64,000 nt of DNA from Flavihumibacter solisilvae (lineage in GTDB: Bacteria; Bacteroidota; Bacteroidia; Chitinophagales; Chitinophagaceae), in NCBI RefSeq assembly GCF_000814475.1, contig NZ_JSVC01000015.1, positions 124,001 to 188,000 of the forward strand. The letters are read 5' to 3'. Shown here piece after piece: positions 8,954 through 12,244 of the stretch (position 1 is the stretch's first letter; every line of letters begins with the position of its first letter). The notes below the pieces were generated by a model. The model searched no databases. It was not told the origin of the DNA and saw only the letters and a list, made by a program, of their open reading frames with translations. The translations under genes were made by a program, and so were the position numbers.

Positions 8954-9733
8954 TTAAATGGTTGTTGGCACACCGGGTGGTAAGAAACTGACCTTCCTGT
9001 TTATCGGTGGATCACCGGCGAGAATTTGCTTCAGCGTAGCCTCGCTTTCCTTGAAATGGGTCCAGCCCCTGTAATGTACAGGTATCACTTTGTTTGGGTT
9101 CAGGCGCTGGATCGACTTCAACAGGTCTTTCCCATTCATGGTGTATTCACCAGCACCGGTCAGATACCTCACCTGTACCGCACCCAGATGAAAGATGGCT
9201 GTGTCGATTTTAAATCGTTTTCCAACTTCTTCAATCCCTTTGAAATACACGGTATCTCCTGAAATATAGATCACACCGTCTTCCTGGCTGTCAAACTCAA
9301 TTATAAATCCAATTACTTTACCGGCAATGAAACCAGGTACCCACCAGGGATGATGTTGTGCCGGCGTAGCAGTGATCTTTAGTCCCGGAACTCTGGCAGT
9401 ATTGATGCTGAAGGATTCCCAGTCATCCAGCCCGGTTATTCCCCTGATCGCTTTTGCAGCAGGCTTGGTGGAAAGGATCAGCGGCACAGACAACGCAAAT
9501 TCGCGCCCTTTATGATCGAAATTATCCATGTGCTGGTGATGGCTCAGGAGAACAAGGTCTACAGGTTGTAGCCCAGATGGCGGCAGGGACGGATTGTCGG
9601 TTTTTCTTGAAAACACTCCTGCGCCATGGTGATATAGGTGACCGGCATTGTCTAAAGTGGGATCTGTCAGGATCCGGAAACCATTGATGTCGATCAGCAT
9701 ACATGCAGTGTCGATATGTGTAATGGTTACCAT
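8954..9733 (-). CDS. Cytoplasmic MBL-fold metallo-hydrolase (UlaG-like)
   Basis: A 259-residue protein without a signal peptide. The metal-binding motif is in LLSHHQHMDNFD (about residues 63-74), with further ligand regions at TPAQHHPWW (about 122-130), YISGDTVYFKGI (about 154-165) and PVHYRGWTHFKES (about 219-231). The family is UlaG-like, the same broad group as the exported hydrolase at 1544-2296, though the two are not close copies. Members hydrolyse lactones or phosphodiesters, including N-acyl-phosphatidylethanolamine in the NAPE-PLD branch, and the HHxHMDNFDH pattern would allow either. Upstream lies the long gene-free region with 11-bp repeats. Confidence 0.88.
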   Translation of the reverse strand: MVTITHIDTACMLIDINGFRILTDPTLDNAGHLYHHGAGVFSRKTDNPSLPPSGLQPVDLVLLSHHQHMDNFDHKGREFALSVPLILSTKPAAKAIRGITGLDDWESFSINTARVPGLKITATPAQHHPWWVPGFIAGKVIGFIIEFDSQEDGVIYISGDTVYFKGIEEVGKRFKIDTAIFHLGAVQVRYLTGAGEYTMNGKDLLKSIQRLNPNKVIPVHYRGWTHFKESEATLKQILAGDPPINRKVSFLPPGVPTTI

Positions 9734-9990
9734 TCACACAAAGATATTCTACCCCGGTTCACTTCAGTTCAGGTTTTTTATTTAAGCATTCAAGATAGGT
9801 GTCCCCGATAGGAAGTGACTATGGCCCTCATTTAATTTTAGAACCTGCCGGTTATTCCGGATTTTGGACCGGTTAATTACCATTTTGTACAGATTGTTCC
9901 CAATGTTTGGAAATTCTCTTTTTGGTGAGTAAATAACATTCTGATTCTTGCGGGAAACGCAAACATCATTAATTGAATTCCAGGCGTTCT

Positions 9991-10321
9991 TTGATAAGCA
10001 ACTTTTCGTGAAGCCGTCCCAAAGCCGGGTGAAAGCCGTCCAGACTTTAGAAAAAGGTAACAACAAGGCCACGCCGAGCCTACGCCGAGGCCGAATTACA
10101 GGGACGAACAAGGGAGAATGAGTACAGCGCGAAGAGAGAAAATTGTATGAGTGACGTGTACAGGAGGTATGAGTGACGAGTTTTGGAGGTAAGAAAGATG
10201 GTATGAGTGACATGTTACTATGTCGATTGTACTACGAATGGTAGTTTGCAGTGAATTGTGCATGAACGGTATCGGAATCAGGGTGATATCGTCCTGAACG
10301 GTCAGCCAGGCTTCCTGAAAA
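9991..10321. repeat. Array A: about 30 degenerate 11-bp units
   Basis: Cut into 11-mers on the + strand, the region lines up with one single-base slip (an extra G at 10200). Examples are GCCGTCCCAAA (10013), GCCGGGTGAAA (10024), GCCACGCCGAG (10068), CCTACGCCGAG (10079), GGGACGAACAA (10101) and GTATGAGTGAC (10145, 10167 and 10201, three exact copies). By my count, A stands at unit position 10 in 16 of the 18 units from 10013 to 10211, and G at position 1 in 15 of them. Units after 10211 keep the A at position 10 but lose the leading G. Unit middles vary freely. This is neither a coding repeat nor a CRISPR array. Confidence 0.8.
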
Positions 10322-10457
10322 AACTGGTTGCGGGATACTCTATAAATCTCCCCCACCAACAGCCGAAAGATTTAAATGTGGCTAAAACGCAATTTAAAGC
10401 CCGTGAGCGACCTTGATATAAAAATAAGTCAAGGATTCGACGCAGCAAAGAAATGCC

Positions 10458-10469
10458 GAAATTTCGGTT
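10458..10469. repeat. Perfect 12-bp palindrome between the arrays
   Basis: CCGAAATTTCGG, in the segment between arrays A and B. A nearby CTTGA...TCAAG pair (10411-10432) could form a small hairpin. No known regulator site is recognised. Confidence 0.4.
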
Positions 10470-10538
10470 ATACGAGGGCAAAGAGGCCTTGTTCCATCCA
10501 GGTGTCAACAACGAGGCCCGGGAGCTTTGATGCCCCGA

Positions 10539-10670
10539 TCCTTCACAATGCCTTCACAATGCCTTCACTATTCCTTCATGAATTGTTCATGCTTCTCCAA
10601 TGAAACAATGAGCAAACAGTATACGAATTGTGAACCCATTGTGGACCCATTGTGATGAATTCGAGAGAAT
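10539..10670. repeat. Array B: about 12 degenerate 11-bp units, partly self-complementary
   Basis: Units of 11 bp run from TCCTTCACAAT (10539) through GCCTTCACAAT (10550), GCCTTCACTAT (10561) and TCCTTCATGAA (10572) to ATTGTGAACCC (10627), ATTGTGGACCC (10638) and ATTGTGATGAA (10649). Eight of twelve units have A at position 10, as in array A. The left units (CACAATG) are complementary to the right units (CATTGTG), so the block can fold on itself, unlike array A. It lies just past the stop codon of the MBOAT gene. Confidence 0.75.
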
Positions 10671-10777
10671 TTCCAATTCGTGCCACCCAAAGAGAGGGCC
10701 TGCGATGGGTCCGGAATGCCCCACGCTCACAGGCCACACTTTTGAATTTTGAGCTTTATTTTTTAGTTGACTGTTAA

Positions 10778-12244
10778 TCAAAACTGGAAATATATAAACG
10801 AGTTGCTGCTCTTCTGGCTGACTACCAGCAGGATCAGCATCACAGCCCAGGCAACACCAAGTACTTTCCAGTTTGTGCGATGAATTATGTTCTCGATCGA
10901 AAGGTCGCGCAGCAGCCAATGAGTTGCGAGCAACGCACCAGTAACCAGGAAAACCTTTACTAAGTCGAGTGTGGACAAAAGCGCCGCACCGTTATGGTCC
11001 ATTCCGAACATGGAAGAAAGTAGTCTCCATGCAGTGCTGAAATCAGTCGAGCGGAAGAATACCCAGGCAATGGTAACCAGCAGGAAGACAAACAGTGCCG
11101 TTGCAAAGCGGTTAATCGACTTGCCTGCAAGGAAAGATGGCACAAAGGAGGCCCTTGAAACTGCCACAGCAGGTTGACCGGTAGTGATCGTTCTTTGTTG
11201 CAGCAGTCTTTCAACGCACAGGTAAACGCCGTGTAACGCACCCCACACCACGAAAGTCCAGGAAGCACCATGCCAGAGACCGCCCAGCAACATAGTGAGC
11301 ATCAGGTTTACGTACGTCCTTGCTGGGCCTTTCCGGTTGCCACCCAACGGGATATACAGGTAGTCGCGCAACCATGCGGAAAGCGTAATATGCCAGCGGC
11401 GCCAGAAATCGGAGAAGCCTGATGCAGCATAAGGAAATTTGAAGTTCTCAGGAAGGCTGAACCCAAGGCACATGGCTGCGCCGATCGCACAGGTACTGTA
11501 TCCTGCAAAATCGAAGAAGATCTGCCCGCTGAATGCAAGCACCCCGGCCCATGCGTCAACAGGCAGCAGGCTGTTTTGTGCCTGGAATACACTGTCGGCA
11601 GGTGAAGCCAGCAACGTATCGGCCATTACTACTTTCATGAATAATCCCAATGAGAGCAGGAAAAGTCCGTTCACCAGCTGATGCCGTGTGGCCTGCTTTG
11701 GCGTCTCGAATTGAGGAACCAACTGGTGGGGTCGTACGATTGGTCCTGCTACCAGGTGAGGGAAGAAGGTAACAAAGAGCGAGAAATCGAGCAATGTTTT
11801 TACCGGTGTACCTTCTTTCTTATACATGTCGATGGTATAACACAACGTAGTAAAAGTATAGAAAGAGATACCAGCCGGCAGGATAATGCTTGGCTTGGCT
11901 GGATGGTAATCAATGCCAATGGTATTTACCAGCGTTACGAAATTGTCCAGCAGGAAATTTCCGTATTTGAAAAAGCATAGCATCCCGAGGTTGCCAATGA
12001 GACTAACGACCAGGAGCAGCCTTTTTTTCTGTTTGTTGTTCTCGTTATACAGCGCCTTTCCGACAAAAAAATCAACAACGGTGGAGAGCCACAGCAAAAG
12101 GATAAAGGGCGGATTCCAGGCAGCATAAAAGATATAGCTGCCGATCAGGAGGTTGACCTTTTTTACTTTCCAGGGAAAGTTCATACTGTGCAATGCCAGC
12201 ATGATGATAAAGAATACGACGAAGGAATATGAATTGAATAACAT
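10778..12244 (-). CDS. MBOAT-family O-acyltransferase (AlgI/DltB-like)
   Basis: A 488-residue polytopic membrane protein that moves acyl groups, usually acetyl, across the membrane to a polysaccharide or another envelope polymer. Conserved MBOAT features are GISFYTFTTLCYTIDMY (about residues 125-141), FPHLVAGPIVRPHQLVPQF (about 160-178), FWRRWHITLSAWLRDYLYIPLGGN (about 287-310) and MLLGGLWHGASWTFVVWGALHG (about 324-345). The last holds the catalytic His. It is followed 10 bp upstream on the same strand by an SGNH-like gene, the usual partner in AlgI/AlgJ and DltB/DltD pairs. No polymer biosynthesis genes lie beside it, so the substrate is open. Confidence 0.93.
   Translation of the reverse strand: MLFNSYSFVVFFIIMLALHSMNFPWKVKKVNLLIGSYIFYAAWNPPFILLLWLSTVVDFFVGKALYNENNKQKKRLLLVVSLIGNLGMLCFFKYGNFLLDNFVTLVNTIGIDYHPAKPSIILPAGISFYTFTTLCYTIDMYKKEGTPVKTLLDFSLFVTFFPHLVAGPIVRPHQLVPQFETPKQATRHQLVNGLFLLSLGLFMKVVMADTLLASPADSVFQAQNSLLPVDAWAGVLAFSGQIFFDFAGYSTCAIGAAMCLGFSLPENFKFPYAASGFSDFWRRWHITLSAWLRDYLYIPLGGNRKGPARTYVNLMLTMLLGGLWHGASWTFVVWGALHGVYLCVERLLQQRTITTGQPAVAVSRASFVPSFLAGKSINRFATALFVFLLVTIAWVFFRSTDFSTAWRLLSSMFGMDHNGAALLSTLDLVKVFLVTGALLATHWLLRDLSIENIIHRTNWKVLGVAWAVMLILLVVSQKSSNSFIYFQF

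Follow-up and report, generated by a model that had tools for sequence, protein, structure and literature searches.

A dispersed noncoding element of Flavihumibacter solisilvae, of which an array of 11-bp units is one copy, may belong to a new RNA-protein pair

The window is a stretch of 64,000 nucleotides of Flavihumibacter solisilvae DNA, corresponding to C7:124001-188000 of the 5.41-Mb genome; C numbers denote contigs and G000 denotes the organism's own genome. Array A, a run of degenerate 11-bp units, lies in a gap (9734-10777) between the genes for a beta-lactamase-fold hydrolase and an MBOAT acyltransferase (Table 1). Five of the nine proteins and ORFs around it matched a Pfam family (lactamase-fold hydrolase, MBOAT, FtsX-type permease, epimerase, and DUF2490). 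The three spurious ORFs across the gap gave no Pfam match at E values up to 0.001, and Rfam covariance models gave none in 9000-12000 at E values up to 1.

Table 1. Features in and around the gap that holds array A (window positions)
Feature	Position	Strand	Description
Beta-lactamase-fold hydrolase gene	8954..9733	-	Pfam PF12706/PF13483
Left end	9849..9882	+	GGTTATTCC (9850) and GGTTAATTACC (9871), 21 bp apart, operator-like; pattern search
Promoter-like pair	9905..9937	+	TTTG 9906-9909, TAAATAAC 9930-9937, spacer 20
Array A	10013..10211	+	18 units of 11 bp, one 1-bp slip
Conserved block of array A	10013-10177	+	15 units, common to five copies
Tail	10145..10211	+	GTATGAGTGAC three times; counterpart of the GCATGAACGACA pair closing type I arrays
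Weak continuation	10213..10321	+	degenerate tail-like GTGCATGAACGGT at 10258; weak lag signal
Second element, hairpin array	10526..10664	.	CCTTCACAATG units, then reverse complement; TRF
MBOAT acyltransferase gene	10778..12244	-	Pfam PF03062

The MBOAT gene has probably been acquired, since its protein is at most about 40% identical over its full length to relatives in the genus and 65-69% identical to proteins in other Bacteroidota records, the nearest named ones being from Ferruginibacter and Flavisolibacter. A Ferruginibacter MAG carries three TTCCCTATAAC units about 115 bp past the end of its MBOAT match (L046, approximately 2829-2861), a spot that corresponds to the position of the arrays in the window. 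The second element of the gap, a hairpin array, is the stronger of the two repeats. It is periodic at 10540-10665, the predicted energy of its RNA fold is well below the shuffle level (z -5.0 over 10510-10700), and a 94% identical copy is found at C11:118597, near the C11 array described below. Hairpin arrays of this CCTTCACAATG type are noted at 10526-10664 and at L043 8611-8737. Tandem Repeats Finder (TRF) at a score of 40 reported this second array and missed array A.

The 11-base periodic register of array A is real. Over 9991-10321 the identity at lag 11 is 0.375, compared with 0.26 in 500 dinucleotide shuffles (z 4.8), and none of the shuffles was as high; the second harmonic at lag 22 (z 3.6) was likewise reached by none of the 500. 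The excess over shuffled controls on which the original prediction was to stand or fall is thus confirmed, and its counts proved exact: within 10013-10211, A occupies position 10 in 16 of the 18 units and G occupies position 1 in 15, and GTATGAGTGAC occurs three times without change, at 10145, 10167, and 10201. The sum of the two best columns of the units was equalled in none of 5000 shuffles. We also agree that 11 is not a multiple of the codon. The claim that one register runs over all 331 bp holds in part. It is clearest at 10013-10211, with a single one-base slip before 10201; by itself, 10213-10321 shows a faint signal, with z 2.0 at lag 11 and z 0.05 at lag 22. No lag-11 excess is present in 9734-9990. 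A stable RNA fold of array A was considered and dropped, the predicted fold lying at the shuffle level (z 0.19).

The first 165 bp of the array (15 units) are found in five gap-free copies in the genome, at 68-94% identity to one another. Relative to array A, the copy on C45 is 94% identical, followed by those on C17 (87%), C11 (78%), and C67 (75%). We refer to this family as type II. Most differences between units are shared, gap-free, by all five copies and were therefore inherited rather than freshly made, so that the ongoing diversification of units that had been suggested is not supported. In the comparison of C7 with C45, 11 of 244 positions differ in the array and 25 of 168 in the left flank (p = 3e-4), and the array has no gap runs, compared with two in the flank. 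The consensus positions of type II units are not more constrained than the others, with an on-consensus divergence of 0.203 and an off-consensus divergence of 0.204 (p = 0.48). At C11, three arrays lie inside one intergenic region. A comparison with an empty site was sought at C17, and no synteny was found in relatives. By blastn, the array was found in none of the 14 other genomes of the genus and in none of 293 other genomes drawn from the family (genus members included, two candidates scored per genome). As judged from these alignments, the kinship of array A with arrays in relatives is visible only in register and unit motifs.

Arrays of this form are a class of which array A is one member. 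At the loosest threshold, 30 noncoding lag-11 segments were detected in a 909-kb sample of the genome that was partly chosen around known copies. The same sample gave zero to two segments each at lags 9, 10, 12, 13, and 15-20, three at lag 14, four at lag 21, and eight at lag 22; the 15 segments at lag 7 and 13 at lag 8 come from other short repeats. Lag-11 segments occur in 7 of 10 sampled sister species (6 of 10 at the strictest threshold), this sample leaving out G004, of which only 3.4 kb was available. None was found in 200 kb from two species of other genera, and in 1.36 Mb of mixed bacterial loci lag 11 was not special. The view that no chromosomal system has this form was therefore too narrow, because such arrays occur elsewhere in the genome and in the genus. 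No description of these 11-bp arrays was found among the matches listed from the open-licence PMC literature.

The units of different arrays are mostly unrelated in sequence, but some families can be seen by eye to recur across species: three species share AAGC-N7 units, and CCCTAT(C/G)AAAA units and a hairpin family, [AACCATGTG(T/C)C]n, are each present in two. Placement of the arrays between genes is near the intergenic baseline, with no clear preference. Other short-period repeats were observed alongside. Intergenic arrays with 7- or 8-bp units (TTTTGAA, ATTCACTT, CTTACCT) lie at several loci in G000, G003, G007, and G022; some form inverted pairs, and they too are degenerate with the phase kept. 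Palindromic arrays with a 14-bp period, of the CACCCGACGGGTG kind, are present at C7:259129-259182, 272964-273047, and 364939-365009 of G000 (L035, L036, L040), with a variant in G010. In sister species G005, all three sampled contig starts (L171, L174, L175) share the same end of 124-127 bp that looks like the start of a transposase, presumably of the IS256 type. An 11-bp array begins at 297, 220, and 149, respectively, within the first 400 bp of these contigs, and arrays may be insertion targets.

A second family, type I, comprises four close relatives (L149, L154, L157, L159) and one partial copy (C1). The arrays contain 14 units, mainly of the form AGC-N8; the four close with GCATGAACGAC twice, the third base being A or G. 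The pattern of this tail pair has 10 matches in the own genome and a single match in 6 of the 14 sister genomes, compared with one overall for the control. The array parts are 79-89% identical and free of gaps, and the left parts are 62-74% identical with gaps. With the misregistered C1 row omitted, the AGC positions, which were picked after the consensus had been inspected, diverge far less than the remainder (0.036 vs 0.201; permutation p = 0.0001). All consensus positions taken together give 0.107 vs 0.248 (p = 0.0004). When compared by eye, the C1 copy and the others appear to be set apart by differences of whole 11-bp units. No terminal inverted repeats or target duplication are visible by eye in the four aligned copies.

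One type I copy, at C7:383.8k, lies between two convergent genes, and here the element has been gained when compared with six sister species, because 333 bp separate the stop of the first gene from the aligned end of the second in this genome, whereas this distance is -3 to 27 bp in six of the eight sisters measured (G001, G002, G003, G005, G008, and G010). In the other two, G004 and G006, the pair is separated by 200 and 294 bp of other sequence. This comparison covers 13 full-length orthologue loci of the first gene, the own one included, the partial locus of G013 being left out; in G007, G011, and G014, the search of the flank did not reveal the second gene. No lag-11 segment was found downstream of the first gene in the twelve sister species other than G009, for which the wrong ORF had been picked.

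Upstream of array A, the left end is followed by a stretch (9906-9937) that we take to follow the Bacteroidota-type promoter consensus, TTTG-N20-TAAATAAC. The left-end pair pattern has 11 matches at seven loci in the genome and none with the reversed-pattern control. Across the 14 other genomes its frequency is no different from chance (14 matches vs 9 in the control), and it was not found in three of the five copies of array A. The left end of array A resembles those of type I arrays. One of the seven loci, C20:194.28-194.35k, carries no type I array; its left end is part of the leader that precedes the gene of a 189-aa protein. The left ends of type I arrays are 82-86% identical to this leader (E 1e-18 to 1e-23), and that of array A matches it directly over a short stretch of 35 nt (E 0.004). 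The suggestion that a transcript is plausible gains from this resemblance between the left end of the element and the leader of a protein gene, and the direction of the C20 gene suggests the direction in which the element would be read. In addition, the 15-mer CAATGTTTGGAAATT is common to the promoter-like stretch of array A and the leader of the 189-aa gene on C7; blastn of the two leaders gave no match at E values up to 0.01.

Relatives of the C20 protein are 189-191 aa long and are encoded beside 11-bp arrays. The C7 member of G000 is 83% identical, and further loci are a 123-aa version in G000 (C7b), one in G003, two in G007, and a broken copy in G005. A profile run over all sampled sequence (2.41 Mb) gave seven clear family loci, and an 11-bp array lies 25-327 bp upstream of the start in all seven, five of which had been found by looking beside arrays, C20 through its left-end match, and the G005 locus through the profile. 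By comparison, an array is present within the 350 bp upstream of 28 of the 1939 called genes. The array class is tied to this gene family. At five of the loci, 25-169 bp separate the array from the start codon that follows it, and a promoter was identified in none of these five. In the other two (C7 and C20), a hairpin array lies upstream of a promoter-like stretch. At G003 and at C10 of G007 the order is pseudoknot, array, gene, as if the array lay within the leader transcript; an additional paralogue follows the gene at the latter locus. Around two weak C-terminal matches to the profile (E 1e-4 and 7e-4), no array is present over a distance of 2 kb. Between the 189-aa gene on C20 and a divergently oriented gene (C20:194821-195960; L167, L351) for a tyrosine recombinase resembling XerA and integron integrases lies an 11-bp hairpin array; the recombinase has an extra N-terminal stretch weakly like HARP, below the cut-off.

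The family of ~190-aa proteins is undescribed. One member had no match in NCBIfam or PHROG, five members gave only two weak, unrelated families in Pfam at E values up to 10 and none in PADLOC, and a profile search of solved structures (PDB) gave no convincing relative (best E 0.71). DUF6266, a possible look-alike of the protein, is absent among the Pfam matches of the five members. The family was not found in viral contigs by alignment search, and one member searched against plasmids and phages gave none.

Four of the seven leaders contain a candidate pseudoknot of the form a-N7 or N9-CGGG-AG-a'-CCCG, with one C or none before the last part. In 2.41 Mb, both strands included, the strict form occurs only in these four leaders, and not at all on the reversed sequence; the motif was defined from these leaders, and therefore its absence elsewhere is the informative part. 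A relaxed form gives 16 matches, of which four are the true ones, and the reversed control gives 13; the strict form alone is therefore informative. The alignment consists of four sequences, which represent three species and include two paralogues, and is fitted to the structure, since its register is held by N padding. In it, 43 of 43 cells are paired, compared with 84% in shuffles, and sliding the partner by one to three columns leaves 33-54% paired. Both sides of the first helix have changed in five of seven pairs, a level reached by 13 of 500 shuffles (5 of 11 over all pairs), and the covariation score was equalled by none of 500. Further pair types are no more numerous than in shuffles, and the second helix is invariant. 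Rfam gave five sub-threshold microRNA matches for two gene-leader loci, all across one hairpin array. Beside array A, the family gene and the pseudoknot are both absent.

We tentatively favour a reading, to which we assign somewhat less than an even chance, in which array A is an orphan, dispersed leader array that is probably transcribed and whose 11-nt recognition step is tied to the ~190-aa protein. In this reading the element opens with a promoter-like left end, continues as a series of 11-nt units, and closes with a tail motif that is repeated. Each unit would present a recognition step every 11 nt in RNA, to be read by the ~190-aa protein or by another oligomer. Copies such as array A, which have no gene, would have been dispersed by insertion and could act in trans as a decoy or regulatory RNA; alternatively, they may persist as partly decayed, non-autonomous copies. 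The reading is favoured by the gap-free copies, the gain at C7:383.8k, the slower divergence of arrays than of flanks, the AGC constraint in type I, the left end shared with the C20 leader, and the tie to the gene family with its leader pseudoknot. Counting against it are the lack of phase constraint and of a stable fold in array A, the missing gene and pseudoknot beside it, the short match of its left end to the C20 leader, the chance-level left-end pattern in other genomes and its absence from three of the five copies, the way in which five of the seven family loci were found, the position of the array upstream of the promoter-like stretch at two loci, the lack of an identified promoter at the other five, and the unselective placement of arrays between genes. 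The fuller proposal, that this is a new RNA-protein system, seen in one genus so far, with a pseudoknot-and-array leader, an AGC-type motif every 11 nt as the protomer register, and orphan arrays that act in trans and spread by insertion, we consider unlikely in its entirety.

The strongest competing explanation is that of a dispersed repeat, neutral or selfish, namely an old 11-bp minisatellite within a non-autonomous insertion element, in which the period is inherited, growth and loss occur by whole units, and nothing is done for the host. The lack of phase constraint in the array A family is its strongest support; the gain at C7:383.8k, the three arrays at C11, the baseline placement, and the apparent whole-unit differences of the C1 copy point the same way. 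Such a repeat would not, however, be expected to remain gap-free and diverge less than its flank, to hold the AGC phase in type I arrays, or to be tied so consistently to one gene family with whose leader it shares its left end, and we hold it to be a doubtful, if serious, possibility. Were the arrays instead read as DNA, as partition or nucleoid sites for example, short direct repeats of about one helical turn and a left end whose 21-bp repeats resemble operator DNA would be readily understood. The spacing, however, is strictly 11 rather than 10.5 bp over 15-18 units, the arrays recur directly upstream of one gene family, and the Pfam scan of the nine neighbouring proteins and ORFs revealed no partition protein, so that the parC/ParR-type centromere offered by the original prediction as the nearest known case is not borne out; we consider a DNA-binding array quite improbable.

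A locus akin to type III toxin-antitoxin systems, with the repeat RNA as antitoxin of the ~190-aa protein and the orphan arrays as spare antitoxin, would account for the array upstream of the gene at all seven clear loci and for the H-type pseudoknot in four of the seven leaders; the antitoxin repeats of such systems are described as folding into pseudoknots and preceding the toxin gene (PMC5086642). Against this, five family members gave no ToxN-type match (Pfam at E up to 10, PADLOC), the array unit is 11 nt long compared with 34-36 nt given there for the ToxIN family, and there is a single pseudoknot per leader, which lies outside the array; we judge this improbable. A Rho-dependent terminator, in which C every 11 nt on the minus strand would form a rut site after MBOAT, had its appeal in the C spacing of 11-13 nt that rut sites require, a published rule being C at that spacing in 78 nt with C>G (PMC6407284). 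The minus strand of array A, which is the strand of both neighbours, has a C content of 0.33 and a G content of 0.18, and for array A alone the C-rich strand is sense to MBOAT. Among 22 array segments between same-strand genes, however, 10 have their C-rich strand on the side of the genes, which is no preference, and several arrays have about as much C as G. The terminator was dropped after this strand test and is very improbable.

Should array A prove to be an orphan copy of an RNA leader recognised by the ~190-aa protein, a protein-RNA pair would be added whose RNA serves as a ruler marked every 11 nt. The arrays would also be a concrete candidate ligand for an undescribed protein family, and the existence of degenerate 11-bp arrays, which can escape tandem-repeat finders, would be explained.

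Several known systems invite comparison. The parC/ParR centromere of plasmid R1 contains clusters of 11-bp direct repeats. The comparison fails because no par genes (ParM or ParR) lie beside array A; in addition, the copies here are dispersed on the chromosome and their units are far more degenerate. The toxins of type III systems are similar in size to the ~190-aa protein. No homology of the latter to ToxN, CptN, or TenpN was detected by Pfam or PADLOC (five members each), NCBIfam (one member), or a PDB profile, so that at the sequence level it is not recognisable as one of these, and many arrays have no gene. With tandem repeats upstream of a gene and an H-type pseudoknot RNA, the type III loci (toxIN, cptIN, tenpIN; PMC5086642) are closest in architecture, differing in at least one defining feature. 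Rho utilisation sites share C every 11-13 nt (PMC6407284), whereas the C-rich strand of the arrays is unlinked to the direction of the neighbouring gene. Among the literature examined, the published element closest in kind is BrickBuilt, a MITE of Porphyromonas gingivalis, which differs in at least one defining feature: its units are 23 nt long rather than 11 nt and it has IS5-family-like terminal inverted repeats, whereas the arrays here have none that we noticed and are tied to a protein family. BrickBuilt belongs to the same phylum and is likewise dispersed and intergenic, with 19 copies in one strain, a repeat body between a distinct leader and tail, and reported promoter elements (PMC4596501).
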